DNA of 34,886 bases from an uncultured Treponema sp. (GCA_946537975.1 CAMNGG010000299.1:1-34886), one strand, 5' to 3'. Positions 5,175 through 34,886 are shown, counted from the first letter of the stretch. The notes: generated from the letters alone by a model not told the origin. Program-made: numbers and translations.

Positions 5175-5987
5175 TCACAATATACTTCTAATACAATTCA
5201 CCATGTATTTGATTTCCATATCATGCGGATGTTCCAGCAGATTAATTAAAAGAGAGGGATTGTTTATAAAGGCCTTGTGATAGATTTCAATTTGAAACAA
5301 TCCAACTTTACGGATTGTATTTAAATTATAAACATTCTTGTCCTTAATTCCTTCCGGTTCGTATGTATTCTCTTCTTTGTAAAAAGTAATTTCACTATTA
5401 AGCCATGAATATCTGATACGAGTTTTTACTCCCCTTTTATCTGCATGTATTTTACATATAGACTTGATAGATGATATTGCTATCTCTGCTGTTTTAGAAT
5501 TAACATATATCATTTCTTTCAGATCTTGTTTCTCTTCAAGTATATATAAATCGATATTCAAATAATCCTGTATCCATTGTAATCCAGTCTTCCATTCGTA
5601 ATAGAAAAATTGCTTTGGATTAAAATGAGGAAGCGCGATCGAAAAGCATCCTGTATCTTTTCCAATTGTGACATGAATCTGACAAGGATAAAGTGTAATA
5701 TAATAATGCTCTGCCTGGGAAAGAAATGTACAGCCAAGATTATTTGCATGCGCCAGATTTCTAATTTCTTTTCGTAACATGAATACAGCATCTTGAGCCG
5801 TGATTTCTAAATCCTGAATATTTGCATTGTGCTTTTCTAAGAACTCTTTGTTTTTACCATTCCAGAAATCTTTAATAAATTTCCTAACTATATTCTCAAG
5901 CTCTTCTTCAGGATTTCCTTCTCTATAATCTCCATAATTGTTTTTATGATGAAGTCTATAAGCCCTCTTCATTGCATTTAAATTCAT
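5175..5987 (-). CDS. uncharacterised protein, member of the IYHKxF/PHxME paralogue family
   Basis: GLQWIQDYLNIDLY, KTAEIAISSIKSI, IEIYHKAFINNPSLLINLLEHPHDMEI shared with 32266-32958. Confidence 0.75.
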   Translation of the reverse strand: MNLNAMKRAYRLHHKNNYGDYREGNPEEELENIVRKFIKDFWNGKNKEFLEKHNANIQDLEITAQDAVFMLRKEIRNLAHANNLGCTFLSQAEHYYITLYPCQIHVTIGKDTGCFSIALPHFNPKQFFYYEWKTGLQWIQDYLNIDLYILEEKQDLKEMIYVNSKTAEIAISSIKSICKIHADKRGVKTRIRYSWLNSEITFYKEENTYEPEGIKDKNVYNLNTIRKVGLFQIEIYHKAFINNPSLLINLLEHPHDMEIKYMVNCIRSIL

Positions 5988-6757: not shown

Positions 6758-7900
6758 CTACTCCACAACCTCAGTAATCTTAACTCCGAAGCTCTCGTCC
6801 ATAACTAAGATTTCTCCATAGGCGATTACCTTATTGTCTTTGATGACTTTTGCAGGTTCATTCCACCATTCTCGCAGTTCAAGGATGCGGCCTTCGCCAA
6901 ACTTTTCTTCTGCTTCTGTACTGCAGCCACCGTAAATGATTTTTGTATTATAAAAAGTTTCTTCTTCTGGAGTTTCTACATTTTCTGTTACACGAACGCC
7001 CCTGTTATCATCAATTACAACTCCCTCGCCCAAGGCAACCTGCTTTCCATTTTTGTAAATATCTAATGGGTCTCCTGCCAGCTTATTTGATTCGAAAATC
7101 ATATTCTTTTTAATCTTGAAGTTTTCTTCCAGGCGGAAACGACCCACTTCGATAATTGTATCTGGTTCTGGATATGTAAGCGGAATAATAATCTCACCTT
7201 TTTTCTGGAAGAATTTTCTCTCAGAGAAAAATCCGTTTTCTCTGAGAGCTTTCACTAAATCGTCAGTAAGAAACAGATTCATTTGTTTCTCTACATTATT
7301 CAGGCTCACCTCGAACACAACAAGAAGGCCCATCTCTGAAAAAGAATTATGCTTAATTAAAAATTGTGGATTATCAACAAATTCCTGCTCGGTAATTTCA
7401 GGAAGTTCTTTGTCAGCCTTACTTGAAAATTCTCTGTATATAATTTCCTCAATAGGACTGTATATATCTCTCGTAAAGAGATTCTTTTCCAGACCATTTA
7501 AATCACGAGCCTTCTCAAGGTGTGCTCCCATAAAGCCATCAAAAAAGACTTCCCTGTCCAATTCAAAAATTCCTTCGCTATCCATCCACGAGAAATTCAT
7601 ACAAGGAGTTGGCATTGGAATGCTTCTGAGGAATTCTTCGCATGTAAGTTGATCAACACTCGCAACATGGAACTTTGGGAAGATTTCATACTTAGAGGCA
7701 AACAGTTTTGTAAGTTCCCGGGCAATAGTTTCTGAGACATTTGAGATTTCTCTAAGCTCTTCTTTTGAAAATCTGTCTGGTCGCTTAAAATCATAAATCT
7801 TAATTTTGCGAACCCTGTCTTTTGGCATTAGATTTACATCTCCAGACGCAATTGACTCTAAAAGTTTATCTATTTCCTTTTTACTTAATACTTCTCCCAT
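6758..7900 (-). CDS. FliM-like flagellar switch paralogue with SpoA/FliN-type C-terminal segments
   Basis: MGEVLSKKEIDKLLESIASGD...RKIKIYDFKRPDRFSKEELREIS as in FliM; IIEVGRFRLEENFKIKKNMIFESNKLAGDPLDIYKNGKQVALGEGVVIDDNRGVRVTE (SpoA) and a second copy ending NKVIAYGEILVMDESFGVKITEVVE. Confidence 0.9.
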   Translation of the reverse strand: MGEVLSKKEIDKLLESIASGDVNLMPKDRVRKIKIYDFKRPDRFSKEELREISNVSETIARELTKLFASKYEIFPKFHVASVDQLTCEEFLRSIPMPTPCMNFSWMDSEGIFELDREVFFDGFMGAHLEKARDLNGLEKNLFTRDIYSPIEEIIYREFSSKADKELPEITEQEFVDNPQFLIKHNSFSEMGLLVVFEVSLNNVEKQMNLFLTDDLVKALRENGFFSERKFFQKKGEIIIPLTYPEPDTIIEVGRFRLEENFKIKKNMIFESNKLAGDPLDIYKNGKQVALGEGVVIDDNRGVRVTENVETPEEETFYNTKIIYGGCSTEAEEKFGEGRILELREWWNEPAKVIKDNKVIAYGEILVMDESFGVKITEVVE

Positions 7901-12278: not shown

Positions 12279-13148
12279 TTATTTTTCTTCCTCTTCCAGA
12301 AATTTATCTTCCTTTGAATCAAATTGGAAATATTTACATCTGCCTAATCCATACTCACTGCAACAAATCTCAAGCTCATATCGATTGGAACAAATACCCT
12401 TCTTCTCCGTTATATTCTGAAGTTGCAATACAATATCTGAATATGTATATACGAAACCTGTTTTTTGAACTAGAATTTCATTATCAATATTACCACCGAA
12501 TATATCCCTAATATTCTCATAACAGAAATAATCAGTAATGATGGAAATATCTAACTCCACTGCCAGCATTTTCAATTTCTTAATAATATTCATTATTCGA
12601 TTCTTTTGACTACCAAATTCTTTCTCAATTGGAATTGTATTCAAAGAATCAATGTAAATAACCCTTAAATCATACCGTTCAACAGATTCCCGAATAATAT
12701 TGCATAATTCATCAAAAGAGAATGAACATACTCTTGGAATAACAACATTTGAAGTAAAAATAGTTTCTATTGCTTTCTGAATATTTTTTACTTCCTGTTC
12801 ATTCATCATTCCTGTAACCATCTTAGAAACTGGAATCAACGTTTCTCGGTATAACATAGCCAAACCAAATTGCTGTTCATTCATAGTATAAGAAACAAAC
12901 CCAAAACGACTCTTATCTTTTGTTATAATATTGTGAAGTAATTGCATTACAAAACAATTTTTGTAATAACATAAATTCGAGCAAATAGTAATTAAGTTTC
13001 CTTTTTGAAATCCATGAGTAATCGCATCAATAGTTGGAAAACCAGACTTAACTCCGCTTATAGAATTAGAATCTTTATATCGTTTTTCAATATAATCAGC
13101 TAACTTCATCGCCAATTCTTGTGCTGTTACATCAGTATGATCACACAT
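12279..13148 (-). CDS. DnaB-C/RecA-fold-like ATPase with eroded Walker A
   Basis: SGFPTIDAITHGFQKGNLITICSNLCYYKNCFVMQLL; Walker B-like VIYIDSLNTI retained; aligns by eye with 22994-23782. Confidence 0.7.
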   Translation of the reverse strand: MCDHTDVTAQELAMKLADYIEKRYKDSNSISGVKSGFPTIDAITHGFQKGNLITICSNLCYYKNCFVMQLLHNIITKDKSRFGFVSYTMNEQQFGLAMLYRETLIPVSKMVTGMMNEQEVKNIQKAIETIFTSNVVIPRVCSFSFDELCNIIRESVERYDLRVIYIDSLNTIPIEKEFGSQKNRIMNIIKKLKMLAVELDISIITDYFCYENIRDIFGGNIDNEILVQKTGFVYTYSDIVLQLQNITEKKGICSNRYELEICCSEYGLGRCKYFQFDSKEDKFLEEEEK

Positions 13149-17657: not shown

Positions 17658-17672
17658 TATCATTAAATGATA
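17658..17672 (+). promoter_or_regulatory. regulon operator
   Basis: TATCATTAAATGATA; 11 nt then TAAAAT, ATG 7 nt after. Confidence 0.85.
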
Positions 17673-17696
17673 CTAAGCAACAATAAAATGAAAGTT

Positions 17697-18440
17697 ATGA
17701 ATAATGATGATGAATTGTTTTATAATTGGATTCAAAGGGAATTTGAAAACTACATTCTAAATCCGCTGGCCAAATATTGGAAAAGTTTACTGAATAGTTT
17801 GATAAGCAAAAACTCTGAATTAATATTTGATTCACAGAAACAAGCCCAGCCCAAACTCTCGAAAAAAACAATTCATAACAACTTTATAGATTTTCTCTCG
17901 GAGCAAAAGAAACATTACGATATTGGGATTAATTACGATTATCAGAAGAGTACAAGAAATTTCAATGTAAGTATCTCATTAAAAAATCATTCAATTGCCG
18001 ATGAAATAATTCTGATTACTTTTTACAAAGATGAAATCCAGCTAAGCGTCAGCCCTTGTTTATCTATAAAATTTGAATTTGATTATTGTGATATTCAGCT
18101 TTTACAAAAAATCCTATTAGATATTTTTGAGATGTTTTTCTCCGGAAAACCAATGCAACAAGAACTCCTGTCCGAAATCGAAGAAATCAGAAAAAAAACT
18201 CATGGACTGACAAAAAAATCTATAGGCATCACCAAAAACGCAATCAAGTCCATTTATGATAACGAAATAGCCAAAAATCCTCAGCTCGAGTTTTCAATTC
18301 AAAGCCGCCTCTTATACACAGACATAAAAATCAATAAACGAACATTTACGATATTTCACAAAGATTTTATTGATAATCCCAAGAAGGTCATAGACGAACT
18401 GCACGAGCTAGAAGAGAAATGTAAAAATAGCAGCAGGTAA
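17697..18440 (+). CDS. uncharacterised protein, member of the paralogue family (probably leaderless)
   Basis: AKYWKSLLNSLI; KKSIGITKNAIKSIY; FTIFHKDFIDNPKKVIDELHELEE. The track's start at 17667 lies inside the operator. Confidence 0.7.
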   Translation: MNNDDELFYNWIQREFENYILNPLAKYWKSLLNSLISKNSELIFDSQKQAQPKLSKKTIHNNFIDFLSEQKKHYDIGINYDYQKSTRNFNVSISLKNHSIADEIILITFYKDEIQLSVSPCLSIKFEFDYCDIQLLQKILLDIFEMFFSGKPMQQELLSEIEEIRKKTHGLTKKSIGITKNAIKSIYDNEIAKNPQLEFSIQSRLLYTDIKINKRTFTIFHKDFIDNPKKVIDELHELEEKCKNSSR

Positions 18441-18477: not shown

Positions 18478-19209
18478 TTAATCTGTCCACTCATCGCTCC
18501 AGATTAATTCATGACAAGAATAGAGATCTTCCATTACACGTAGAATCTTCTGGCGACATTCCTGAACCTGACGCTTCAATACTGGCCCTAGGTCATCAAT
18601 GTAATCATATAACCACTGTTCGGCGCGCTTGCTCATATTGCAACTAATCGCTTTTTTGAAGGTATCACTTGTGTTTTTAAGAGCAATACCCAAATCATAA
18701 TTAGAAATATCTCGCAGAATTTTTTGGATGCTTCTTCCATCAAAACGAACAATATCTTCAAAAGCCAGAAATGATTTATGAAATTCACGATTGAAACGTG
18801 TATATCCTTTTCTTTCTGCTAGTTTCTTTTCAATCTTATCACGTCCTTCATTCCCAAGTTTCTGAATGTCATTCATTACCCCACGTGGGAAACATTCCTT
18901 CTTATAAAAATTAAAAATGAAATTAGAAAATTCACGAGCCAGTTCTCTTTCCATATAGTGCATTTTGTCATCTTCTGCATAACCACAAAACAGCTCTTTG
19001 CTATCATAGGTATTTCCATAAAATTCTTCCTGAGCTGCAACATCATCTATAATAAAGCGAAGAGTTTTACAGTCTTGCAAGATTGGTTCCTTAATTGTCT
19101 CATACAACTGTCTGCAAGCAGTTTCAAAGACCTTTCCAACACGCTCATCAAAATCTGTAAATGAATACTTTGCTTCTCCATTCTTACCATCTTTATGAAA
19201 CTCAACCAT
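18478..19209 (-). CDS. FliG-C-like protein (most divergent copy)
   Basis: FLAFEDIVRFDGRSIQKILRDISNYDLGIALKNTSDTFKKAISCNMSKRAEQWLYDYIDDLGPV matches the FliG C-domain pattern. Confidence 0.8.
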   Translation of the reverse strand: MVEFHKDGKNGEAKYSFTDFDERVGKVFETACRQLYETIKEPILQDCKTLRFIIDDVAAQEEFYGNTYDSKELFCGYAEDDKMHYMERELAREFSNFIFNFYKKECFPRGVMNDIQKLGNEGRDKIEKKLAERKGYTRFNREFHKSFLAFEDIVRFDGRSIQKILRDISNYDLGIALKNTSDTFKKAISCNMSKRAEQWLYDYIDDLGPVLKRQVQECRQKILRVMEDLYSCHELIWSDEWTD

Positions 19210-19730: not shown

Positions 19731-19771
19731 TTCTCCCCTGCTATTATTTGTGGTATCAAGGAGGCTCGCTT

Positions 19772-20497
19772 ATGGCAAACGAATTATCTGTTGAACGCCG
19801 CAAGGCTCAAATTATGGTTTCTTATGCAATGGACAATATTACAAAGGAAACACAGAAGGTTTTACAGGAATATTTGCAGGAAAAGCATTTTGAAAGTCTT
19901 GCAAAGATAATTGCTTATCTGGAGCTTGATTACACGAAAGCCGATGAGTTTCTGCAGGCTTATGATTACGATACCCGAGATAAAATCTTTGAGCTCTCCA
20001 GAAAATTTCATAAAACAGATGAAGCTGTTGTTGCTGAAGCAGACCATATTGTAAAAACTGCAGGAGTTTCCTGCGATGATGATTTTCAGATTATCAAAGA
20101 AAACCTCCCTGCCGGTGGAAGAGATTTTGCAAAAGATGCTGTTCATAATTTCCGAACAACAACACCCGTCCTGAAACCAGAACTTGATAAATGTCTTTTT
20201 GAAATTAAAGATATAGTTTACCTTCGTGACCTTGATATCCAAAAACTTTTGCGTGATATGGATCAGCGACAAATTGCAGCAATCCTTAGATATGAATCAG
20301 AAGAGGTCCAGAATAAAATATTCCGCAACATGTCAGAACGAGCTGCAAAAATGCTCAAAGACGATATCGAAATGATGGGTTTTATCTCTCAGAGCAGACT
20401 TGATGCTTGCCGTGCAAGAATGATCAATACCATTCTAAGACTCGAAGCTTCCGGAGATATTGAAATCTTTACAAAAGAAAATTTTGGGGAGTTGTAA
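19772..20497 (+). CDS. FliG-like protein (middle and C-terminal region)
   Basis: CLFEIKDIVYLRDLDIQKLLRDMDQRQIAAILRYESEEVQNKIFRNMSERAAKMLKDDIEMMG; ATG at 19772 after AAGGAGG. Confidence 0.85.
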   Translation: MANELSVERRKAQIMVSYAMDNITKETQKVLQEYLQEKHFESLAKIIAYLELDYTKADEFLQAYDYDTRDKIFELSRKFHKTDEAVVAEADHIVKTAGVSCDDDFQIIKENLPAGGRDFAKDAVHNFRTTTPVLKPELDKCLFEIKDIVYLRDLDIQKLLRDMDQRQIAAILRYESEEVQNKIFRNMSERAAKMLKDDIEMMGFISQSRLDACRARMINTILRLEASGDIEIFTKENFGEL

Positions 20498-22192: not shown

Positions 22193-22207
22193 TATCTCAT
22201 CGTGATA
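22193..22207 (+). promoter_or_regulatory. regulon operator (variant)
   Basis: TATCTCATCGTGATA; 12 nt then TATATT toward the FliG-like gene. Confidence 0.65.
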
Positions 22208-22255
22208 GTCTACCTGTCGTATATTAATCATATAAATACGAAGGAGGCTATGCTT

Positions 22256-22984
22256 ATGAAAAATGAATTATCTGCAGAACAGAAGGCTCAGACTATTGTT
22301 GAAACCACAATGGGCGACATTACCAGAGCAACCCGCAAAGTACTGATGGATTATGTCAGCAATATGTATCTTGTAAGCTTTGCAAAAGCAATCGCGTATC
22401 TCGGGCTGGAATCCGAAGATGCTATCAGTCTTTTGAATACCATGGATGCCGACACTCGCCGCCAGGTTGAGGCCTTTGCTAAAGGCTATCAGAAATCAGA
22501 ACCTCAGGTTGTTTCAGAAGTTGAGCATATCGTCACTGCTAATGGAATGAACCTTGATGATGACTACAAGAAGTTGAAGGAAAACCTTATACTTTCCGGC
22601 CAGCAGTTTACTGAAAAAGCAGTACGCAATTTCCGCAGCGAAACTCCAATCTTCCAGAAAAAACTCAACAACTGCATTTTTGCATTTGAAGACATTATCA
22701 ATCTCGATGATCGGGCGATTCAAAAGACACTCCGCGACGTAGATCAGCAGGAATTAGCGAAAGCTCTCAGGGGGGCTTCTCCCGAAATCCAGGATAAGTT
22801 CTTCCGCAACCTGCCAGTCCGTTATGCAACCATGCTAAAAGAAGACATGGAATTTATGGGTCCTGTGATCATAACCGATGTCAAAAAAGCCCAGGCAAGA
22901 ATCGTCCAGATTATCCTCCAGCTTGAAGCAAAAGGCGAAATTGTGATTGTTGCCAAGCATGAAATTAGCAAACTACTGGTTTAA
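22256..22984 (+). CDS. FliG-like protein (closest to consensus)
   Basis: CIFAFEDIINLDDRAIQKTLRDVDQQELAKALRGASPEIQDKFFRNLPVRYATMLKEDMEFMGPV...QARIVQIILQLEAKGEIVI; ATG after AAGGAGG. Confidence 0.9.
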   Translation: MKNELSAEQKAQTIVETTMGDITRATRKVLMDYVSNMYLVSFAKAIAYLGLESEDAISLLNTMDADTRRQVEAFAKGYQKSEPQVVSEVEHIVTANGMNLDDDYKKLKENLILSGQQFTEKAVRNFRSETPIFQKKLNNCIFAFEDIINLDDRAIQKTLRDVDQQELAKALRGASPEIQDKFFRNLPVRYATMLKEDMEFMGPVIITDVKKAQARIVQIILQLEAKGEIVIVAKHEISKLLV

Positions 22985-22993
22985 AATAATTTC

Positions 22994-23782
22994 TTATTTC
23001 GAACTATTCGTATCAGAACAATAATAAATTACTGGACTCTCGAATCTAACAATTTCCCTCGAGAAGTTCAGTTTAAATTCTGCAGTTTCTCCATAATGAT
23101 TTTTTGCCACGATTAATGTTGCAACACTGTCTTCAACATTCTCACGATGTACAAAGAGCACTATATCTGAAACATCTTCTAAAGCTCCAGATCCACGTAG
23201 TTGTTGCAAATTTGGAGCCAAATTATCACAGGATCTTGCAACCTGACAAGTAATAAGAATCGGAATCTGTAATTCTTTTGCAAGCTTCTTAAGTTTTATG
23301 ATTATTTCCGTTACTTTCTCATATACTGGAGCTGCATTATCATTTATAGTAATTAAGCCAAGATAATCGATATAAATTATATCTATGGCATTCTCTTTTA
23401 CCTTCGTTCGAGCCATATCACAAATATCATTAATATTATCTACTCCATCTTCGATTATGATTGGTAAATCGCTGACTTCCGCCAAAACTGTTTTGTAATT
23501 TTTTAATTCATCTTTATCCATTTCTGAATTTCTGATTTTAGAATATGGAATACAAGAAATAGATGAAACTAATCTATCCTTAAACTGTGCTGCAGGCATT
23601 TCAAGACTGAAGAACAAACCTTTTGCACCGTTCTCAATAGTAATTTTATTGATTAAGGTTCCAAGAAATGCAGACTTACCAATAGACGGTCTAGATCCTA
23701 TAACCGTTAACTCCCCTGGAAAAAATCCGCCAATAACATTGTCTAATTCTGTAAAATTTGTTTTGATTGCTTTTACATCCAT
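22994..23782 (-). CDS. stand-alone DnaB helicase C-terminal-domain-like ATPase
   Basis: TNFTELDNVIGGFFPGELTVIGSRPSIGKSAF; LFFSLEMPAAQ; IIYIDYLGLI; LRGSGALEDVSDIVLFVHRE; no DnaB N-terminal domain. Confidence 0.9.
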   Translation of the reverse strand: MDVKAIKTNFTELDNVIGGFFPGELTVIGSRPSIGKSAFLGTLINKITIENGAKGLFFSLEMPAAQFKDRLVSSISCIPYSKIRNSEMDKDELKNYKTVLAEVSDLPIIIEDGVDNINDICDMARTKVKENAIDIIYIDYLGLITINDNAAPVYEKVTEIIIKLKKLAKELQIPILITCQVARSCDNLAPNLQQLRGSGALEDVSDIVLFVHRENVEDSVATLIVAKNHYGETAEFKLNFSREIVRFESPVIYYCSDTNSSK

Positions 23783-23822
23783 AATAACCTCCGTTGTATG
23801 GAGGTATCATAATTTACAGCAA

Positions 23823-23837
23823 TGTCATTTAGTGATA
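23823..23837 (-). promoter_or_regulatory. regulon operator
   Basis: TGTCATTTAGTGATA; 11 nt then TATGAT toward the DnaB-C-like gene. Confidence 0.8.
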
Positions 23838-23852
23838 TTGAACCTTGAGATA

Positions 23853-24692
23853 TTAAACTTCATATCGTTTTAGGTAAGCTCTATGTTCTAAATCATTTGA
23901 CCAATCAACTCGAGTAAGAAACTCTGAATAACGAATATACTCAACGGAGAAATCTACTCCTAGTTGTTTGAAAAGATTACGGAATGTCACATTTGCAAAT
24001 GCAACATATTCTTTTCCTTCACGCTCTACCGTTTGATATTCTTCTGCTTCATCATAATTCCAGACTATATTCAATAATCTGATTTTCTTTGGAACCTTAC
24101 CTTTCTCTCGTGCACAGTAATTATAGATTCCAAGAATATGAATATTCATTTGAACTGCATCGTATTTTGAATAAAAAGGCATTATCCTTTTTGCATCTTT
24201 TGAATCTTTCACTTCCGGGAAAGATTTCAAACTTTTGAAAGATTCTATAAAGTGCGGCACTGCCTTATCTATTTCCGGGGGATAACATCTTGGCGAAAGA
24301 TATGCAATGCTCATAGATTTTGGATTTTCTGTCCACTCAAGCATTTTCGCTTCAACAAGGGTCAATTCTGTCTTATCTTCACTTAGCATAGAAACATCAA
24401 GATGCGCAGAATGATCATGGTCTGTTGCATCGTTGTTATTCAATGCAGGAAATTCTCGCTCATATTCAATATTCTGATATTTCTTTCCATCAAGAATAAC
24501 ACTGTCTGGGCCGATTGTGTTATAAATCATTGCGGCGGAGGATCTGATTGAGTTTGCTCTGGGGTCAATTCCTTTATAGGGAGTGAAGAAAAGATTTTCT
24601 GACATTGCTTTCAAATAATATCTATTACATAACTCTAATTCCTGTTGAAAGAGTTTTTGTCTCAATCTTTCAAGTACTATTTCTTTATTCAT
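23853..24692 (-). CDS. PD-(D/E)XK-type nuclease-like protein
   Basis: SAHLDVSMLSEDKTELTLVEAKMLEW (D...ExK). Confidence 0.65.
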   Translation of the reverse strand: MNKEIVLERLRQKLFQQELELCNRYYLKAMSENLFFTPYKGIDPRANSIRSSAAMIYNTIGPDSVILDGKKYQNIEYEREFPALNNNDATDHDHSAHLDVSMLSEDKTELTLVEAKMLEWTENPKSMSIAYLSPRCYPPEIDKAVPHFIESFKSLKSFPEVKDSKDAKRIMPFYSKYDAVQMNIHILGIYNYCAREKGKVPKKIRLLNIVWNYDEAEEYQTVEREGKEYVAFANVTFRNLFKQLGVDFSVEYIRYSEFLTRVDWSNDLEHRAYLKRYEV

Positions 24693-25518
24693 GCTTATCT
24701 AATTCCTTCTTGTTTTTCCACTCTTCAAATTCAGCCTCGTTTATTACATATTTTCGTGAATTAGGATTTTTATCAAAAATATCATGTATACTTAATAAAT
24801 CTGCCATCGAAAAAGAGTACTTTTTATTCAACCCAATAAAATTTATATAAATAATAACTTGTTTAAATCTTTTCTCTAATTCTTTAGAAGAAAAATGACG
24901 GTTATTTATTTCTTTTTTCACACCTTCTATTGATCTACTATACTTTGAGAAAATTGCTGCTATAGTTTTTTTGGACCGGTTATTTATTTCTTTTTCTTTA
25001 AGATACAAATAATGAATGAAATAATTCTTATTTTTTCCATTATTCTCACAAATCAATTTCAGGAAATCTTTCTGTATATTTTTTTTATCACATTGTCCAT
25101 ACTTGAATTCTAAATGCGACATTAAATTCTGCTCTGGCTTTTTTTCAATAAAGTTAGCTTTATGATATAAAGAAACATCAATTCGTGCAGACAAGAAATT
25201 ATTATCCTCATTATCATAATTTTCATTTGGAAAAATAACTCGAGGATTCTTCTTAAAATTATATATATTTTCTGAGGGAGTCTCGACAGAAAAAAATAAC
25301 TGATTTTGATTTAGAATACGTCTTATGAATATTTGTTTAAGTTCCTGTTCTGAATATCTTTTCTCCCCTTTTTTCTTTTGCTTATTTTCCTCATTTGCTT
25401 TTTCATCATTTCTATAATTCGGAATGATAATATTAGACTCACAAGCACCTTCTTTGATTACTGTTTCTAATTCCCTAAAAGAGTCTTCAATAATTGTTTC
25501 TATTTCCTTATTACTCAT
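24685..25518 (-). CDS. PD-(D/E)XK-type nuclease-like protein
   Basis: SARIDVSLYHKANFIEKKPEQNLMSHLEFKYGQCDKKNIQKDFLKLI (D...ExK). Confidence 0.6.
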   Translation of the reverse strand: MSNKEIETIIEDSFRELETVIKEGACESNIIIPNYRNDEKANEENKQKKKGEKRYSEQELKQIFIRRILNQNQLFFSVETPSENIYNFKKNPRVIFPNENYDNEDNNFLSARIDVSLYHKANFIEKKPEQNLMSHLEFKYGQCDKKNIQKDFLKLICENNGKNKNYFIHYLYLKEKEINNRSKKTIAAIFSKYSRSIEGVKKEINNRHFSSKELEKRFKQVIIYINFIGLNKKYSFSMADLLSIHDIFDKNPNSRKYVINEAEFEEWKNKKELDKHE

Positions 25519-25550
25519 CTATTCCTCCGTAATTATTTTAACTAGAAAAT

Positions 25551-26261
25551 CTATTTCAACAGTATATATTTTTTAAGATTCCAGAATGAATCCGAAACAT
25601 CCTCATTTTTTATCTCATATTTACTAATAGCATCATTAATAAACTTTTCATCTCCTTTGTTTAGAGCAAGTAAATCTTCTAGCATTCCCATTGCTTCATC
25701 TTTATTTACTGATATATTTGTTAGATTGTTTTTCAGATTCTTTCTGATTTGATATAAATAATTCTTATGAGACAATTGACTATGATCACTTCTCAGCATC
25801 CATATCAAATTGCTACATCTGTTATCAAAACCATTATTTGTTTTATGATGTACAATCCAATAATCATTTTTGGGAAGTTTTATAAGAGTATCTGATACAG
25901 GACATTTACACCAAACTTCTGCAACAAAACGATATACAGGATATTCTATTTTGTCATTTAATCTTACATACAAATATCCGTATTTCTTTTGAAATTGTTT
26001 TTCAATTTTATTATTTATTTTCACTCTTCCTAAATTACTGATATTAATTACATTTTCTTTTAAGAAGTTTTTTAACTCCTCTCTACAAGCATATAAAGCC
26101 AAATCGACATTCTTGTATTCCTTGAATTCTTCGTCTTTTAAGTTTGAAATATTCAATTCTTTATATGCTATATTGTCATTTTTGTTATATTCATAATTCT
26201 GCAAAATAAAGTTTAATTCTTCTTTTGAAACGCCATAATCTCTATTAAATTCTTTTGTCAT
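25551..26261 (-). CDS. HNH endonuclease-like protein
   Basis: YPVYRFVAEVWCKCP...YWIVHHKTNNGFDNRCSNLIWMLRSDHSQLSH. Confidence 0.8.
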   Translation of the reverse strand: MTKEFNRDYGVSKEELNFILQNYEYNKNDNIAYKELNISNLKDEEFKEYKNVDLALYACREELKNFLKENVINISNLGRVKINNKIEKQFQKKYGYLYVRLNDKIEYPVYRFVAEVWCKCPVSDTLIKLPKNDYWIVHHKTNNGFDNRCSNLIWMLRSDHSQLSHKNYLYQIRKNLKNNLTNISVNKDEAMGMLEDLLALNKGDEKFINDAISKYEIKNEDVSDSFWNLKKYILLK

Positions 26262-26276
26262 ACTCTTCCTTGTGTT

Positions 26277-27272
26277 CTACCTTAAATTTCTTACCATCCC
26301 TCTAACATTCTTTCCCCACTCTTTCACCAGCCACTCTGGCTCCAGCGGCTGCACGTACATTCCATGACTCAGTACCCACCCGAGAAGCGGATAGTCCTGA
26401 TTAGTGGTAAAGGTCATGATTGTACTACCATCACTCTGCTTTTCGAACTTCTGGTCTTCGGCCCAGTTGTAGGTTTTTATGTAATTGAGAGTTTGTTCCG
26501 AAGTAATTTTGAGTTTGCAGTTAAGTAACTTCGGGCCTATGTAGCGGCGGAAGTTACCTTTTGCACGTTTGGTATATTCAAAATCAGGAGGAAGTTCGAA
26601 GGTATTTTTCTTGTCAATTTCCAGGTCGTGGATTCCCGGCAGATTGTAGAATCTGTTGGCTTTTACATCCGGCATCTGATTATATGTGTACAAGCTCCAC
26701 ATTCCTTCGCTGTAAATAAGCTGCCACGGCTGAACAACAATCACATTGTCGTAATTCAGATACTTAAAGCGTATGTAGTTATTCTTTGACATTGCCTCTT
26801 CAAGCTTGGTCCAGATTTCATCATCAACTTTTACCGGATCCATTCCAAGAAACAAAATGCGGTTCGAGAGCTTCTTTGAATTGAGTTTTGAGTCTTCATC
26901 AATATTGTCAGAAAGAGAATTGAAAACTTCGATTGCTTTTTTATACACCGGTGTATTCTTTATGAGATTCAGAAGATTGGACATCAGTTGTGCTGCGACA
27001 ATCTGTTTTTCCGATGTAAGCATTGCAGGAATTCTGAAAGAAGGCTGAGTGTAATAAAAGCCTTTTCTGATTCTGTCGTACTGCAAAATATCTTCCGCCC
27101 CAAACTTCAGACGTAAATCCCGCAAGTCGCGGTTAATTGTTGGAATGGAAGCTTCTGTTACTCTTGCAAAATCTTCTACACTCGGATATCCTCCTTGTGA
27201 AATCATTTGATCAATCTTCAAGATTCGTTCTAGTCCGTTCAAATACTGTTTCTTTACCTTTTCTTTTGCCAT
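26277..27272 (-). CDS. WYL-domain transcriptional regulator, candidate regulator of the TATCATTTAGTGATA regulon
   Basis: HTH YPSVEDFARVTEASIPTINRDLRDLRLKF; VVQPWQLIYSEGMWSLYTYN; variant operator in its own promoter. Confidence 0.85.
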   Translation of the reverse strand: MAKEKVKKQYLNGLERILKIDQMISQGGYPSVEDFARVTEASIPTINRDLRDLRLKFGAEDILQYDRIRKGFYYTQPSFRIPAMLTSEKQIVAAQLMSNLLNLIKNTPVYKKAIEVFNSLSDNIDEDSKLNSKKLSNRILFLGMDPVKVDDEIWTKLEEAMSKNNYIRFKYLNYDNVIVVQPWQLIYSEGMWSLYTYNQMPDVKANRFYNLPGIHDLEIDKKNTFELPPDFEYTKRAKGNFRRYIGPKLLNCKLKITSEQTLNYIKTYNWAEDQKFEKQSDGSTIMTFTTNQDYPLLGWVLSHGMYVQPLEPEWLVKEWGKNVRGMVRNLR

Positions 27273-27313: not shown

Positions 27314-27328
27314 TATCAAGGAATGATA
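27314..27328 (-). promoter_or_regulatory. variant operator upstream of the WYL regulator gene
   Basis: TATCAAGGAATGATA; followed on - by GTCTGGGTGTATAATAT. Confidence 0.65.
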
Positions 27329-27331
27329 GGC

Positions 27332-28456
27332 TTAATTTTTTCTTTGTTTATTTAATTCTAATTTTCCTTCAACAGAAAAATCAAAATCTTTATAAACCTC
27401 TGTAGCTTCTACATCTGTAATACAATAGGCACATTCACATTTGAGTCTGTGGCACACCCAATTAGACAAAGGAGTTCTTAACGAACTGGCAGTTATAAAC
27501 ACAGGTCGATACCCCTTATCAGATATATATTTCATTTTTTTTCCTAGTTCAGAATCAAATCTTTTTGCATCACAAGATTCTAATAAAAAATAAGGTACTT
27601 CTGTTCTGGATTTAGGAGTAACTATATGGTCTGTTAAAAAATCACAAAGCGTTTGTGAAATTCTTAATACATGCACCCTTTTATCTTCTGCTAAATTCAA
27701 AATTATTGGGTATGCCAGCTTCTCTCTAACCTTTTCCATAAGTTCTACCGGCTTTTTCTTATCCTTTAAATTATCAGCAATTGTTTCAAGAATTGTATTC
27801 ATGTCGCGAATTGAAACGCCTTCTTCAAGAAGCCAATTTAAAATGAGCTTTAAATCTGATGTTGAAAAATCATGCTTGAAAAAAATATCATCTATTACAA
27901 CAGGATTTTGAAAACGAATTTTATTTATAAGAGTATTTACCATGCTTTGATCAAGAAACTTCGTAATATTCTTTCTTATAATTTTGTAAAGATGACATCT
28001 TATAACAACAGACCACTCTGGAATCACATAGCCACGAGACTGTGCCTCATCTTTTTCTGAATAAGGGATTATTACTGCATCGATATCAAACGCAGGATCT
28101 CTAGTCTTCTCTCCAGAAATTTCTTCCGTAACAGCTCCTGTATCAAGGCACATAACATAATGAGGATTACATTTTTCATATCCACCAACTTCAACACCAT
28201 GCAATAATATCTTATATTCATAAGCTTCGAGACACATATTATCCCGTATACGAACTTTAGGCAGGGGTAAACCATATTCCCCATCAATTTGATTTCGTAC
28301 ATATGAAATCTCTTCTAACAATGGAGCTTTTAGTTCTTGATCAACTAAAGGAATTAAACCATATCCAAGTTGTAATTCAAGAGGATTTGGTTGTCCTCCA
28401 AAATTACGATAATACTTCTCATCATATATTCTTGGGCGTTTTCGTCTTCCAGCCAT
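27332..28456 (-). CDS. soluble FlhA cytoplasmic-domain (FHIPEP C-terminal) homologue without membrane segments
   Basis: NPLELQLGYGLIPLVDQE...VRIRDNMCLEAYEYKILLHGVEVGGYE...GEKTRDPAFDIDAVII...EEGVSIRDMNTILETIADNLKDKKKPVELMEKVREKLAYPI. Confidence 0.9.
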   Translation of the reverse strand: MAGRRKRPRIYDEKYYRNFGGQPNPLELQLGYGLIPLVDQELKAPLLEEISYVRNQIDGEYGLPLPKVRIRDNMCLEAYEYKILLHGVEVGGYEKCNPHYVMCLDTGAVTEEISGEKTRDPAFDIDAVIIPYSEKDEAQSRGYVIPEWSVVIRCHLYKIIRKNITKFLDQSMVNTLINKIRFQNPVVIDDIFFKHDFSTSDLKLILNWLLEEGVSIRDMNTILETIADNLKDKKKPVELMEKVREKLAYPIILNLAEDKRVHVLRISQTLCDFLTDHIVTPKSRTEVPYFLLESCDAKRFDSELGKKMKYISDKGYRPVFITASSLRTPLSNWVCHRLKCECAYCITDVEATEVYKDFDFSVEGKLELNKQRKN

Positions 28457-28457
28457 C

Positions 28458-29684
28458 TCATTCTCCTCTGTTTTTCAGGCTTGGAATAAAGGTTGCTTTA
28501 TTAAATCGCAAATCTTTAATCCAATGGTTTGCATTGTCATACTCGACTTTGCTTGTAAGAATCCAGAGAATTTGCTTGTTCTTTTTGATTTTTGGTATAG
28601 CCGCATAACCATCCGTAACCATAATCAGGCCTTGGTATTCTTCATGGTTTTCGTAATAGTTTATTACGCTCTGAAAATTGGTTCCGCCGCGTCCAAGGAT
28701 TTGAATTGAACGTCTGGCTTTTTTTAGTTCAAACTCCTGTTTGATTTCTGTATCAAATGCAAGAACCTTAATAGTCTCAACTCCATAGCTGAAAAAGCGG
28801 TTTATGATCGAAAAGAAATTCTGCAAATCATTAGAACAAATTGAACCGCTCACATCAACGGCAACAAGCAGGTGCGTTTTGGGTTCAAACTGACTTCCCA
28901 TGAACTCAAAGCCATATCGGCGGTTAGGCTTCATGCGGGTTAGTTTTCTGCGCTGGCTGATTATGCTTGCTCGGAACTGAGAAAGGATTCGGCGATAGTC
29001 CATCGGAATTTTTAGAGAGGCTGTAACTGTTTCCTGAAACTGTCCTGTTACACTACCCCACTGATTAGTCTTCTGGGCTTTCTCTATTTCCATATTTACT
29101 TTATCAGCCATCTCTTCGTCTTCATCCCAAAATTCAGAACAAGATGCTGCAGCCTCATATTCCCATATTTCCCCTTTTTTCAGAGACGGACTGAGATGAG
29201 TTTTTTGCTGAGAGTCTTCACCGCTTTTACCACCAGAGCAAGACAAGTCTTTGTAATCTCCCTCTGGAGTAACATCCGGGCAAATCAAAGTAAGTTTTCT
29301 GTAATATTCCTCATAACTCAACTGATTCTCAAAATTGTAATGAGCTGCATTATGGAGTTTTTCATTCTGAAAACAGTGCTCACGGATTGTAACGTCACTG
29401 GCTGTAGTAAGGGCTGACCTGTTCGGATACGGTGGCACTCGCTGATAAGGATGCTTTAAGAGGATTCGGGTAACTTCTGTTTTAAGCCCCATCTCAATCT
29501 CATCTGTGGAGGCTTGTTTCAACAAGTTAGGATTGTATTCAATGCGACGTTTCCCGGTTCGGAAAGGACACTTTATTTCTGTGTTCTCTTCCAGTTTGTG
29601 AGTACAGTACACATTGAATAAAAGCGGTTCATACAAAAACCACTTGTCTACAACCTTACTGATTGTTTCCCTTACATCAGTCAT
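28458..29684 (-). CDS. VWA-domain protein with DUF2201-like N-terminal region
   Basis: HLLVAVDVSGSICSNDLQNFFSIINRFF (MIDAS DxSxS), LIMVTDGYAAIP; N-terminal YNPNLLKQASTDEIEMGLKTEVTRILLKHPYQRVPP. Confidence 0.85.
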   Translation of the reverse strand: MTDVRETISKVVDKWFLYEPLLFNVYCTHKLEENTEIKCPFRTGKRRIEYNPNLLKQASTDEIEMGLKTEVTRILLKHPYQRVPPYPNRSALTTASDVTIREHCFQNEKLHNAAHYNFENQLSYEEYYRKLTLICPDVTPEGDYKDLSCSGGKSGEDSQQKTHLSPSLKKGEIWEYEAAASCSEFWDEDEEMADKVNMEIEKAQKTNQWGSVTGQFQETVTASLKIPMDYRRILSQFRASIISQRRKLTRMKPNRRYGFEFMGSQFEPKTHLLVAVDVSGSICSNDLQNFFSIINRFFSYGVETIKVLAFDTEIKQEFELKKARRSIQILGRGGTNFQSVINYYENHEEYQGLIMVTDGYAAIPKIKKNKQILWILTSKVEYDNANHWIKDLRFNKATFIPSLKNRGE

Positions 29685-30760
29685 TATTTAATCTCCGCTA
29701 CAAACTTTGTCATCTTTGAATAAAGATCCGGACACTCGCTGATAATGAACACAAGCGCATTCGGATACATTGTTCCGCTGAACATATTTGCAAAATGTGC
29801 CATCGCTTCACGTAGTTTTTTCTGTTCGAGATAAGAAAAATAAGAAGCAAGATTTTCTGCCATTATTACCTTATCACCCTCTGCATATTTTCCACTTTCA
29901 AGATAGACAAAGATTCCGTCATTGATTGTTGCAAACTGAGGAGTCTTATAAGATTCAAGCTTGAGTCTGCTCATTTCAAAGTTATCGAGCAAAAGCTCTT
30001 TTGCAGTGAGAATGTGATTCTTATCCAGGAACTCAATGAAGCGGTTTGCAGCAACTCCACCCACAATTCCAGCAATCATACTTTTGTGACTCTGTTTCAA
30101 AACAGGCTTGTCTTTTATGATTTCTGAAACACGCACCCAGCCACGACGGTCCGGAGTTTTTTCAAGATTATCAAGTTCTTCAATTGATGACTGATTATCC
30201 AGAGCTTTCGGATTTGCAGAAATGTAATCTAGAATGCGGTCATCAACTCCATTCTTGTTTGCCCACAAAAGCCAGTCCTGAACACTTGGCACAAACTCGT
30301 AAATGTTAAAGCGAGAAACAAGGGCCGGGTCCAGGTCTGTAAGCTGATATTCTTCTCCATTGTTTACAGCTGAAATAATGCGGCTACCTGCAGGAAGAGA
30401 ACGGCCGGCAAGTTTACGATTTAGGGCAAGATCCATGATAGTCTGCAACACTTCCGGGCGTGCACGATTCAACTCATCAAGGAAGAGAACAACCGGTGTA
30501 TCATCTGTCGGAAACCAGTAAGGAGGCATGAACTCTGTATGCCCGGTCTCTTCGTTTTTATGCGGAATACCAATCAAGTCGCCAGGATCACTCATCTGTC
30601 CCAAAAACAAAGGCACGACCTTGCAGCCTTTTGCTGTATAAAACTTTTCCAAAATCTGAGACTTACCGATTCCGTGTTTTCCCATAAGCATAATATTCTG
30701 AGTACTTGGAGTTTCTTCCAGAATCTCCAAAAGCAAATTACCATCAATTCTTACTGACAT
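29684..30760 (-). CDS. MoxR-type AAA+ ATPase
   Basis: LMGKHGIGKSQILEKF; PVVLFLDELNRARPEVLQTIMDLALNRKLAG; ALVSRFNIYEF. Confidence 0.9.
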   Translation of the reverse strand: MSVRIDGNLLLEILEETPSTQNIMLMGKHGIGKSQILEKFYTAKGCKVVPLFLGQMSDPGDLIGIPHKNEETGHTEFMPPYWFPTDDTPVVLFLDELNRARPEVLQTIMDLALNRKLAGRSLPAGSRIISAVNNGEEYQLTDLDPALVSRFNIYEFVPSVQDWLLWANKNGVDDRILDYISANPKALDNQSSIEELDNLEKTPDRRGWVRVSEIIKDKPVLKQSHKSMIAGIVGGVAANRFIEFLDKNHILTAKELLLDNFEMSRLKLESYKTPQFATINDGIFVYLESGKYAEGDKVIMAENLASYFSYLEQKKLREAMAHFANMFSGTMYPNALVFIISECPDLYSKMTKFVAEIK

Positions 30761-30805
30761 ATTTCTTATCCTCCATTCGTTGTCTATAATTTAATCACAT
30801 ACAAA

Positions 30806-30820
30806 TATCATTTAGTGATA
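30806..30820 (-). promoter_or_regulatory. regulon operator
   Basis: TATCATTTAGTGATA; 12 nt then TAAATT toward the MoxR gene. Confidence 0.85.
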
Positions 30821-30851: not shown

Positions 30852-31556
30852 CTATATTTTTCCAAGCTCTTTCATTAGTTCTTCTGGCATCTCTAAGAAC
30901 TCCTTATGCAAAACTCGAATCCTTTTTCCTTGTAAATCAAGAACAGAATACAAATACTTCTGTTCCAAATTCTTGGGACTCTCTTTCCTACTGTCAAAAA
31001 TTGCCTTTATAGAACTCTGGGCTATTTCTACTGTTTTCAATGTCAGGTTTTGATCACTCTCTTCAATTCTTAAATGTTCATATAAAAGATCTGCTAATTT
31101 CTCATTTTCATACAAATCCCTACAAACTTCTGAAAGCAAAAGTTCCATAATTTCATAATCTTCTAATAAGAAATTTTCTATAAACAAACCTGAAAGCATC
31201 CGAATTTCTATAGCTGCACACCCTATAGAAATAATTATAGAATCTGAAAAGTAAGCCTCATTTAGATATCTGAATTTAATTCGATATTCTGTTTCTTGAG
31301 ACTCTTTCTGCATTGTTATTTCTAAGTTATATCTTTTTCCCAAATCCATAAGGAACCGATCAATAGAATCCTTTACTATATAATATGAAAGAGCTCTTTT
31401 AGTTGATTTATAATTATTTAAGCCAATCACTGTATACGCATCTATAAAAAGTGAATTCCAAAAAACTCTATGACTTACATCCAAAAGTTTTATCTTTTCT
31501 TCATTGAGAATTTCCTTAAGCTGTTCATTATCTATTTTCTCTTCACAATCCGACAC
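30852..31556 (-). CDS. uncharacterised protein, member of the paralogue family
   Basis: RVFWNSLFIDAY; LKTVEIAQSSIKAIF; IRVLHKEFLEMPEELMKELGKI; GTG start. Confidence 0.7.
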   Translation of the reverse strand: MSDCEEKIDNEQLKEILNEEKIKLLDVSHRVFWNSLFIDAYTVIGLNNYKSTKRALSYYIVKDSIDRFLMDLGKRYNLEITMQKESQETEYRIKFRYLNEAYFSDSIIISIGCAAIEIRMLSGLFIENFLLEDYEIMELLLSEVCRDLYENEKLADLLYEHLRIEESDQNLTLKTVEIAQSSIKAIFDSRKESPKNLEQKYLYSVLDLQGKRIRVLHKEFLEMPEELMKELGKI

Positions 31557-32269
31557 AAGTAGCCTCTTATATATTCCAACTCTCTTGTAAGCACTTCCGG
31601 ATTCTCAAAAAAGTCTTTGTGATAAATCCGGACAACTTTTCCACTTTTCAAAAATGACGAATACAAAACTTTCTGTACAAACGATGCATGGTCGCTTTTG
31701 TCATTTTGAAAATAAAGAGCGCGGATTGAAGACCTGGCTATCTCTATAGATTTTGAATTAATCTTTTTCGAACACTCTTCTATATGCTTTGTTTCTGCGG
31801 CTAAGGCTTCAAACTTTTCTTTTTCACTGTTGAAAATAACGTCAAACAGTTTCGCAATAATATTTGTAACAAGTACATATTCTTCAAGCATGAATTGTTT
31901 TAAGAGTGGATCATATGGAAAAATACGCAGAGTAATATCCTTATTACAAATTACAATAGAAAGCTCATCTGCTTTCGTTTTCTTTTTTCGATCAAAACAA
32001 ATCCTTAAAATAAATTCTGTTCTGCTAGGTCCGTTTGTCTCTGTTACAGAAATTCCGTATTTTTTGCAAAGCTCTGAAAAATTTCTTCGACAGTAATCAG
32101 ACACATCTCCCACACTAAGATTTACTGGAACCATAAAATATCCATATTGATAGGTGTAGTTCTTGAATAAAGCCTTAAACGTATTATTCCAGTATTCCCC
32201 ATGAATGTGGTTTATGAGCTCTGTTTTCTCACGGTCTAAAATCGAGGCCAATTCTCTTTCGCTTTTCAT
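31532..32269 (-). CDS. uncharacterised protein, member of the paralogue family
   Basis: GEYWNNTFKALF; KSIEIARSSIRALY; VRIYHKDFFENPEVLTRELEYI; ATGA coupling with the upstream gene. Confidence 0.75.
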   Translation of the reverse strand: MKSERELASILDREKTELINHIHGEYWNNTFKALFKNYTYQYGYFMVPVNLSVGDVSDYCRRNFSELCKKYGISVTETNGPSRTEFILRICFDRKKKTKADELSIVICNKDITLRIFPYDPLLKQFMLEEYVLVTNIIAKLFDVIFNSEKEKFEALAAETKHIEECSKKINSKSIEIARSSIRALYFQNDKSDHASFVQKVLYSSFLKSGKVVRIYHKDFFENPEVLTRELEYIRGYLCRIVKRK

Positions 32270-32958
32270 TCCGTTTCCTTCCTGCAATAAAGTTTGTCTT
32301 CGATTTCCATTTCATGAGGGGACTTAAAAAGCTTGAGTACGTCCGAGGAATCTATGCTGAAAGGCTTATGATAAATCTGAATATGATATTTCTCATCTTT
32401 CGAAATCCGGGCAATAATATCGCTCTTCAAACGATTCTGATTGATTTTATAATCCAGACATTTCTCTCTTAGTACTGAATTACATAGAGCCAGAATTGAA
32501 GCTTTTACAATATCTGCAGTTTTAAGATTTAGATAAAACTTGTCACGGACTTCCTCTGTCTTTTCTATAAGAGGTTTTATATCAATGTTGATATAATCCT
32601 GTATCCATTTCAAACCTCGCTCCCAATCGGATGCAGCAAAACTTCTGGAATTGATATGAGGAACAGAAACTGTAAAATCATTCGTCTTCTTGTCTATTCC
32701 GACATAAATTGGAAAAGGAACAATCGAAATGTAATAGTGGTTGTTATGAGAGTATGCCGAATATTTAAGGCCGCTTTTCTTTGCAATAGATTTTATGCCT
32801 TTCTTCAACTGAGAAAGAACATCTGTAGAGGATTCATTCAGTGGCTTATATTCTTCCTGAAGAATACAAAGCTGAAAATAAGCCTGTTTCCAGAATTCAC
32901 CCGAAATCTGATAAATTAATTCATTGAGTTCCGTGCATGGTTCATCGTTCTCATTCAT
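32266..32958 (-). CDS. uncharacterised protein, member of the paralogue family (probably leaderless)
   Basis: GEFWKQAYFQL; GLKWIQDYINIDIK; LKTADIVKASILALC; IQIYHKPFSIDSSDVLKLFKSPHEMEIE. Confidence 0.75.
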   Translation of the reverse strand: MNENDEPCTELNELIYQISGEFWKQAYFQLCILQEEYKPLNESSTDVLSQLKKGIKSIAKKSGLKYSAYSHNNHYYISIVPFPIYVGIDKKTNDFTVSVPHINSRSFAASDWERGLKWIQDYINIDIKPLIEKTEEVRDKFYLNLKTADIVKASILALCNSVLREKCLDYKINQNRLKSDIIARISKDEKYHIQIYHKPFSIDSSDVLKLFKSPHEMEIEDKLYCRKETE

Positions 32959-32981: not shown

Positions 32982-32996
32982 TATCATATAATGATA
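32982..32996 (-). promoter_or_regulatory. regulon operator
   Basis: TATCATATAATGATA; 11 nt then TATATT, ATG 6 nt after. Confidence 0.8.
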
Positions 32997-33478: not shown

Positions 33479-34886
33479 TTATGCTACAAGCTTGTCGAAC
33501 TCAGCATATGGTTCAAGTATCTGAAGCATGAACTCGTATGGAGTTACAACCTTGAGGTCGCCACTCACTACATCTGCAAAGATGTTTGCTGATGCACCGC
33601 TTACCAGTTTTACGCCCTTCTCGTTCATTGTAACAGGAAGGTGTGTATCGCGGGCTTCTACGTTCCAGAATACGAGCTCTGGAAGTTCATAACCGGCAGC
33701 TTCAAACTCCTTTTTGTAGAATTCGAAGGTTGAGACACCTTCTGCGCAGTAATCGAACTCCATGTCAGAAATAATCAAAACTCGTTCAATCATTTCCTCT
33801 TTTGGAACATTACCGCTCTTTGCTACATCAAGGATAAGGCGGTAAACCTTACCGATATCAGTGTTAGAACAGTCATTAAACTTTGAAATGAAGTTTAACT
33901 TCTTCTGCAAAGTGTCTGCGTTCTCTGGAACCTGAACGAGTCTTGGTTCAGAACTGAAGGTGATAAAGCTGTTCTTATATGCACCATCAAGCTGTTCTGC
34001 AAAAAGCAATGCCAAAGATGTAGCAATATTGATTGCAGCAAAATCTCCAGAACCATACATAGAACCAGAACCGTCGCGAACAACAATGGTCTTTGAATCA
34101 AAGCTTCCACGGTCCAAAGCCTTCCAGCTTGCTTCCAAAGGAAGGGCCTTCTCGTCCGGAAGACATCTAGCACCAGACCATCCATCCATAAATGGAGCAA
34201 CAATCTGATATGGATAAAGGGTCTTAGTATTAAGCTTTACCCTCTCCTCATCAGGAATCTCTTCACCACGAGCAAGCTTTTCTGCCTGTTCAACTACCTT
34301 GTTCAAGAAGCTCTTATAGCGTTCTTCATCGTTACGCATAAAGGCCTTCTTGTAACGGAGCATTGCCTGACTTGGCTGCTTAGAATAATCAAAGGTGTAA
34401 TCCTTGCGACGAAGGTTATCTTCAAGAATCTTGATTTCCTTACGAAGCGCAGAACACAACTTACGATATTCAACGGCCTTCATTCCAAGAGCTGCCATAA
34501 GCTGTTTGGCAAGCCAAACACTCTCTTTAGAAGAAGTATTGATAGAAGGAAGCCACTTTCCAAGCAAGCTTACGGTTCCTGAGCCTGTCGAAGGGTCTTT
34601 ACCCTTCTCCATTGCTTCCTTATCTTTTTCAATCTGACTTTTTATCAGAGCGATTGCATCATTCTTTACCGGTGTATCAAGCAGAACAAGAAGGTCATCC
34701 CAGCGACCGTATTCAGGAACAGCGTAAACAATCTGCTTGGCCATTTCTGGATAGAACTGAGCCAATTCTTTCAAGAGCACGCGGAAGCTGTTTCGCTCAC
34801 CAAGACCACCGCGGATGTTACGCATATAAAAAAGAATCTTAATTGCAACTACAGGATTCTCTGCATAAGCCTTTGCAAAAAGCTTG
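33479..34886 (-). CDS. VWA protein of DUF2828/TROVE-like type, 5' end outside window
   Basis: Frame open to window edge (KLFAKAYAENPVVAIKILFYMRNIRGGLGERNSFRVLLKELA); VWA part TIVVRDGSGSMYGSGDFAAINIATSLALLFAEQ; ERVLIISDMEFD. Confidence 0.75.
   Translation of the reverse strand, partial: KLFAKAYAENPVVAIKILFYMRNIRGGLGERNSFRVLLKELAQFYPEMAKQIVYAVPEYGRWDDLLVLLDTPVKNDAIALIKSQIEKDKEAMEKGKDPSTGSGTVSLLGKWLPSINTSSKESVWLAKQLMAALGMKAVEYRKLCSALRKEIKILEDNLRRKDYTFDYSKQPSQAMLRYKKAFMRNDEERYKSFLNKVVEQAEKLARGEEIPDEERVKLNTKTLYPYQIVAPFMDGWSGARCLPDEKALPLEASWKALDRGSFDSKTIVVRDGSGSMYGSGDFAAINIATSLALLFAEQLDGAYKNSFITFSSEPRLVQVPENADTLQKKLNFISKFNDCSNTDIGKVYRLILDVAKSGNVPKEEMIERVLIISDMEFDYCAEGVSTFEFYKKEFEAAGYELPELVFWNVEARDTHLPVTMNEKGVKLVSGASANIFADVVSGDLKVVTPYEFMLQILEPYAEFDKLVA
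34574..34595 (-). repeat. short dispersed-type repeat inside the VWA gene
   Basis: ggttcctgagcctgtcgaaggg, read in frame as DPSTGSGT. Confidence 0.5.

Follow-up and report, generated by a model that had tools for sequence, protein, structure and literature searches.

The subject of this paper is an operon on a contig from an uncultured Treponema sp. (GCA_946537975.1, CAMNGG010000299.1; 34,886 nucleotides, analysed at full length and here called the window), in which the genes for a MoxR-type AAA+ ATPase and a VWA protein are followed by one for a soluble cytoplasmic domain of the flagellar export-gate protein FlhA (FlhA-C). In the reading that we favour, with a probability of about 45%, the operon belongs to a chaperone and co-chaperone machine of the conflict type, in which MoxR and VWA work with an adaptor (named the X family in this analysis), and for which the T. 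bryantii group has captured inactive modules, namely FlhA-C and a fusion of the FlhB cytoplasmic domain with X (FlhB-C-X). All evidence used here is sequence evidence, in which the operon, the FlhB-C-X fusion, the loss of the FlhB autocleavage motif NPTH, a fast divergence of the captured modules as against a constant ATPase, and a palindrome shared with other genes can be read directly. It looks like a previously undescribed system that changes fast and is probably defensive.

The window is the whole of contig C299 of a 3.6-Mb metagenome-assembled genome (MAG) in 430 contigs (genome label G000), which is incomplete and about 4% contaminated. The coordinates of all features are collected in Table 1.

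An operon of MoxR, VWA and a soluble FlhA domain

The three genes lie contiguously on the minus strand, MoxR and VWA overlapping by 1 nt and VWA and FlhA-C being separated by a gap of 1 nt (open reading frame calls and Pfam), and the palindrome TATCA-N5-TGATA stands ahead of MoxR; the tightly packed operon under one operator that a preliminary description of this DNA had recorded is thereby confirmed. The Walker A (GKHGIGKS) and Walker B (LFLDE) motifs of the ATPase, read in the sequence, show no variation across the alignment, and MoxR is better conserved than any other cassette gene, with identities of 80-99% among eight aligned orthologues. In a motif scan of 14 VWA homologues, the MIDAS motif DxSxS was found in 14/14 and the HExxH metallopeptidase motif in none.

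FlhA-C matches the Pfam FHIPEP model from position 331 on, i.e. over the cytoplasmic half only. Its best PDB sequence matches are FlhA cytoplasmic domains, and its AlphaFold2 (AF2) monomer model (pLDDT 83) has a TM-score of 0.87, by target length, to 6ch2/6ai0; judging from the agreement between PDB sequence search and model, FlhA-C is a complete FlhA cytoplasmic domain. There is no membrane region upstream that a correction of the sequence could restore, because the gene starts at an ATG of its own, with a Shine-Dalgarno-like GGAG, immediately past the VWA stop codon. A frameshifted or assembly-truncated FlhA was ruled out by the occurrence of the same soluble form in isolates and by a full-length FlhA elsewhere in the same MAG (gene order flhB-flhA-flhF). 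Neither is FlhA-C a recent breakage of flhA, since the stand-alone copies are set apart from canonical Treponema FlhA in the tree (support 99-100). In comparison with canonical FlhA (FHIPEP family), FlhA-C thus retains the full fold of the cytoplasmic domain but has neither the membrane half nor the canonical linker, forms a separate clade and evolves fast. Two "phage" records inspected as possible phage-borne FlhA-C proved to hold full-length canonical FlhA beside an FlhB-like gene, and hence are flagellar contigs. A scan of genome contigs with FlhA-C alone gave no match, its peptide patterns being too variable.

Among the residues that we take to form the chaperone-binding dimple of Salmonella FlhA, D456 and F459 are kept in most FlhA-C copies, and T490 is replaced in most. 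The loss of T490 alone does not prove that chaperone binding has been lost, D456 and F459 being kept in most copies.

Separately, a second family of soluble FlhA-C proteins was observed, in which the cytoplasmic domain is fused to a sigma-70 region 4 domain (L071:8700-10022, L073:1260-2624, L061-L065); an AAA ATPase adjoins in 4/7 loci.

Recurrence in other genomes

Close relatives of MoxR (>=80% identity) occur in T. bryantii NK4A124 (G106), T. bryantii XBD1002 (G015), T. ruminis RU1, Treponema sp. JC4 and several rumen MAGs. The arrangement belongs to gut and rumen Treponema, and the contiguous order MoxR-VWA-FlhA-C recurs in NK4A124, XBD1002 (with two FlhA-C copies), JC4 and one uncultured Treponema; a soluble FlhA-C as third gene, rightly pointed out earlier as unusual, is therefore present in isolates as well as in further MAGs. 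In T. ruminis, the gene after MoxR-VWA is a weak FlhB-C-like/X gene and FlhA-C is absent, two further genomes have FlhA-C and FlhB-C located away from MoxR, and in genome G191 FlhA-C, FlhB-C and a SpoA fragment are grouped together. Most Treponema genomes lack the system, some of them with normal flagellar genes. Genus-wide, the number of weak FlhA-C copies is to be read as a minimum (at least those among the matches listed), and the Fisher tests of co-occurrence (p ~1e-11 to 1e-13), made among the matches listed for weak FlhA copies, are indicative only. Our literature search found no paper that joins FlhA with MoxR and VWA.

A similar mix was seen in another phylum, where a Bacteroidales locus (L117:10001-16513) combines MoxR and VWA with a DnaB-like ATPase and with a PLD protein that shares 62% identity with the one in the window.

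The X family and the FlhB-C-X fusion

Three X-family genes (X1-X3) sit just upstream of MoxR in the window. In the relatives, a gene of ~370 aa follows FlhA-C; at first look it passed for an unknown protein, and it resolves into FlhB-C and X. An FlhB cytoplasmic domain makes up its N-terminal ~105 residues (Pfam Bac_export_2, E 1e-9 to 3e-13) and matches EscU/YscU/FlhB-C by Foldseek, and the remainder is homologous to the X proteins (hhalign 98-99%, reversed-profile controls near 0). Stand-alone FlhB-C proteins of the FlhX type exist, and FlhB-C-X shares with these, and with FlhB, YscU and EscU, the FlhB-C fold at the N terminus, but differs in the fused X domain, in its operon with FlhA-C and MoxR-VWA, and in the NPTH motif, replaced in the alignment by NGTE, NGQE, DESN, NGLE and others. 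The X fold was modelled confidently (as part of a model with pLDDT 86); a Foldseek search with the X domain returned no confident structural neighbour, with RnlA at E 0.026 only.

The window holds no FlhB-C-X gene: FlhA-C ends right before the conserved WYL promoter region, and comparison with the relatives indicates that the gene is lost here, which is why the preliminary description could not see it. Further-removed Treponema MoxR-VWA loci that lack FlhA-C often have a distant X homologue of ~200 aa in third place (hhalign 89%, E 2e-6). Because X homologues stand third where FlhA-C is missing, and because X is fused to FlhB-C, we regard X as the more constant partner and FlhB-C-X as the probable bridge tying FlhA-C to the ATPase. 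The earlier proposal that FlhA-C is the third partner of the pair therefore stands as regards gene order only; the generic third partner of this MoxR-VWA clade is probably X, encoded upstream in the window, and not FlhA-C.

Divergence rates and possible cassette exchange

Between T. bryantii NK4A124 and XBD1002, amino-acid identity is 91% for MoxR, 92% for the WYL regulator encoded next to FlhA-C, 88% and 86% for canonical FlhA and FlhB, and 75% for VWA, as against 46% for FlhA-C and 37% for FlhB-C-X. Differences at four-fold sites amount to 0.47-0.49 in MoxR, WYL and canonical FlhA/FlhB and to 0.61-0.68 in VWA, FlhA-C and FlhB-C-X (0.65-0.68 in the last two), so that an older divergence may account for part, though not all, of the excess in FlhA-C and FlhB-C-X.

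Most neighbouring island genes of the window are 86-100% identical to those of NK4A124, with four-fold differences of 0.01-0.29, compared with 0.43-0.54 in core flagellar genes of the same two genomes. The outliers are FlhA-C (58% identity) and one DnaB-like gene (22994..23782; 49%, when most of its neighbours reach 93-99%), and the alignment is abruptly interrupted at the FlhA-C/FlhB-X block. Both the closeness of the island genes and this interruption would result if cassettes were exchanged inside a mobile or recombining island. Another swapped cassette was observed at 23794-26291 of the window, where an HNH/R1/R2 block is exchanged for a different gene in NK4A124 between conserved flanks.

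A shared operator and its predicted regulon

The palindrome found ahead of MoxR also precedes WYL, X, FliG-C, FliM-SpoA, DnaB-like and AAA genes. A strand-wise count of its longer form, tolerating one mismatch, gives 25 matches in the window where 1.0 is expected; of 19 site matches (up to one mismatch), 15 are placed 18-60 bp ahead of a predicted start, and 2 more overlap one. The genes behind these sites comprise MoxR, WYL, X3, X4, three FliG-C, FliM-SpoA, two DnaB-like genes, an AAA ATPase and others, including an open reading frame of merely 81 aa without known relatives. Genome-wide, strict-form sites number 17 in the MAG of the window, 14 in NK4A124 and 22 in XBD1002, while among ten control Treponema genomes seven have 0-1 and the other three 4-5. 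These sites are strongly clustered: 12/14 in NK4A124 fall inside 30 kb (binomial p ~2e-23) and 21/22 in XBD1002 on one contig. No operator match was found in the canonical flagellar loci fetched or in the loci of the FlhA-C-sigma4 fusions.

The WYL protein of the window, 94-95% identical to its counterparts in NK4A124, XBD1002 and G167 and 82% in T. ruminis, is a candidate repressor of this regulon. Operator matches with mismatches also stand upstream of genes for the membrane part of FlhA alone (FlhA-N) at L066, L067 and L080, at the last of which the gene is directly upstream of MoxR. FliG_C domains occur in 3-7 copies in the group and 2-3 in controls, SpoA domains in up to 12 and, in most controls, 2. 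Since the palindrome is common to these genes and the copy numbers fit, it would seem that the FlhA-C operon is one part of a coordinated group of genes derived from the flagellum.

Table 1. Features of the window and of related loci; positions are those of the window unless a locus is named.
Feature	Position	Strand	Basis and remarks
MoxR-type AAA+ ATPase, 358 aa	29684..30760	-	Pfam AAA_5 E 3e-10
DUF2201_N + VWA protein, 408 aa	28458..29684	-	Pfam DUF2201 VWA E 3e-12, DUF2201_N E 1.5e-9
FlhA-C, 374 aa, without membrane half	27332..28456	-	Pfam FHIPEP 331-641, E 3e-63
Operator (predicted) TATCATTTAGTGATA	30806..30820	.	46 bp upstream of MoxR start
Operator (predicted) TATCAAGGAATGATA	27314..27328	.	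42 bp upstream of WYL start
WYL/WCX-domain regulator, directly downstream of FlhA-C	26277..27272	-	Pfam
X1, X family	30852..31556	-	Alignment of X proteins; absent from G106
X2, X family	31532..32287	-	Alignment of X proteins
X3, X family	32266..32958	-	Alignment of X proteins; operator 32982-32996, 24 bp upstream
X4, X family	17667..18440	+	Two operator matches at/upstream of predicted start
X5, X family	5175..5987	-	Alignment of X proteins
C-terminal X domain alone, 129 aa	19276..19665	-	Operator 51 bp upstream
FliG C-terminal-domain paralogue	22202..22984	+	FliG_C E 5e-34; one-mismatch operator 22193-22207 overlaps predicted start
FliG C-terminal-domain paralogue	19748..20497	+	FliG_C E 4e-26; operator 19716-19730
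FliG C-terminal-domain paralogue	18478..19209	-	FliG_C E 6e-22; operator 19259-19273
FliM + two SpoA domains, non-flagellar paralogue	6758..7900	-	FliM E 3e-18, FliMN_C E 4e-16; one-mismatch operator 7956-7970
DnaB-C-like ATPase	12279..13148	-	One-mismatch operator 13204-13218
DnaB-C-like ATPase	22994..23782	-	One-mismatch operator 23823-23837
AAA ATPase, 723 aa	2402..4573	-	Operator 4629-4643
TROVE-like DUF2828/DUF7788 VWA protein, same island	33479..34825	-	Pfam; PHROG 850 RNA-binding protein E 1e-97
FlhA-N-only proteins (FHIPEP membrane part)	L066:8559-9356, L067:4687-5442, L072:2423-3205, L080:917-1705		

Proteins in which FliM-SpoA carries an N-terminal Cro/C1-type helix-turn-helix were seen at L131:3287-4717, L132:1400-2707, L139:5434-6804 and L140:4708-6102 (Pfam shown for L132 and L140), and are likely flagellar switch domains turned transcription factors. 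The island that houses WYL also comprises TROVE, RtcB and N6-methylase genes. Its RNA-repair genes are represented by the TROVE-like protein in the window and NK4A124 and by RtcB in related loci, where the RNA ligase gene stands beside MoxR-VWA-FlhA-C (L057:17499-18728, L068:4711-5997).

Proposed mechanism and alternative explanations

In the mechanism that we propose, the WYL protein would keep the regulon repressed in the absence of a stress or infection signal; X would bind VWA and so couple clients to it, and FlhB-C-X would present FlhA-C to MoxR-VWA. As copies of the flagellar gate, FlhA-C and FlhB-C would act as decoys or sensors and bind a flagellar-targeting factor of an invader or of the cell itself, and ATP hydrolysis by MoxR would assemble or remodel the complex into an effector state. 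We prefer decoys or sensors to a working export gate because NPTH is lost, T490 is mostly replaced and both proteins diverge fast, a combination that fits the former better; for the same reasons the "secretion-type docking platform" suggested by the preliminary description is not established. Several points weigh against the decoy or sensor machine. The operon contains neither a nuclease nor a toxin nor any known effector, PADLOC has no model that matches MoxR, VWA or FlhA-C, and in the neighbouring genes scanned no Pfam match to VMAP, iSTAND, FtsH or a beta-propeller rose above the cut-off (bpMoxR fell below it). The choice of flagellar parts as captured modules is left unexplained, and a mis-binned contig could be an alternative for the window, not for the isolates; since the latter give separate evidence, mis-binning would weaken the argument for exchange in this one MAG only.

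Alternatively, soluble FlhA-C and FlhB-C-X might compete with the real gate for export chaperones and substrates, with MoxR-VWA loading or releasing them and thus tuning flagellar assembly. Such titration or sensing, though on balance doubtful, stays a serious rival because D456 and F459 are kept in most FlhA-C copies, on a full cytoplasmic-domain fold, even if T490 is usually not; the predicted regulon also holds FliG-C, FliM-SpoA and FlhA-N, and DNA-binding domains are carried by other flagellar fusions of the group. Yet most Treponema genomes, even those with normal flagellar genes, do without the system, the canonical flagellar loci fetched have no operator match, and very fast divergence with allele swapping is unlike a flagellar regulator. 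We consider it unlikely that the WYL-controlled regulon builds a non-flagellar machine, defensive or secretory, from FlhA-N, FlhA-C, FlhB-C-X, FliM-SpoA and FliG-C with MoxR-VWA as its motor. That the same parts, with FlhA-N in the membrane, form a split export-gate and C-ring-like platform of secretion type powered by MoxR seems quite unlikely: operator matches upstream of FlhA-N-only genes (L066, L067, L080), the position of such a gene directly upstream of MoxR in genome G011 and the grouping in G191 would agree with it, but NPTH is gone, parts are lost independently (FlhB-X in the window, FlhA-C in T. ruminis), and no second sets of FliP/Q/R, FliI and FliH were seen near the operon, though no dedicated search was made.

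The sharp allele-swap boundaries and the loss of modules among close relatives would also be expected of a drifting island, in which duplicated flagellar, DnaB and sigma fragments are kept by mobile-element exchange and have no coherent role. This is improbable in view of reading frames maintained across species, a MoxR conserved at 80-99%, a single conserved palindrome near start codons and the conserved pairing of FlhA-C with FlhB-C-X. Very improbable, finally, is a phage-derived assembly module, i.e. a jumbo-phage-like MoxR/metallopeptidase-vWA pair with TROVE as a phage remnant. Jumbo phages do have a MoxR-vWA pair (PMC7824862), and PHROG matches exist for MoxR (2e-51), VWA (8e-42) and TROVE (1e-97); against this, a scan of viral contigs with MoxR gave no close relative, its best-ranked phage tblastn matches are just 25-28% identical, VWA is without HExxH, and no virion genes were recognised in the window.

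A MoxR-VWA ATPase system has here taken up components of the flagellar type III export gate: the cytoplasmic domains of FlhA and FlhB are present as fast-diverging soluble proteins, and FlhB-C is joined to the putative adaptor domain of the system itself. The gene set and its DNA operator offer a handle on what MoxR-VWA machines act upon, and open the question whether decoys of housekeeping machines serve bacterial conflict.

Comparison with known systems

The MoxR/metallopeptidase-vWA pair carried by jumbo phages (PMC7824862) resembles the Treponema pair in that MoxR adjoins a vWA protein with an N-terminal domain of putative metallopeptidase type, but identity is low, the Treponema VWA has no HExxH, and FlhA-C is part of the operon. 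Closer are the MoxR-vWA-centric ternary conflict systems, in which modules acquired in inactive form are proposed to be decoys and the third components are VMAP, iSTAND, FtsH and beta-propeller proteins (Kaur et al. 2020, PMC7159879). The core features of these ternary systems are found here as well, namely a MoxR AAA+ ATPase with Walker A/B motifs beside a vWA gene and MIDAS aspartates in the vWA protein, and so are an extra conserved partner and fast-varying modules that are inactive and come from other cellular systems. The Treponema system is not a known subtype, since no third component of the kinds described by Kaur et al. was found. The main text of PMC7159879 makes no mention of FHIPEP or flagella, whereas here the third component would be X and the modules are domains of the flagellar export gate and C-ring.

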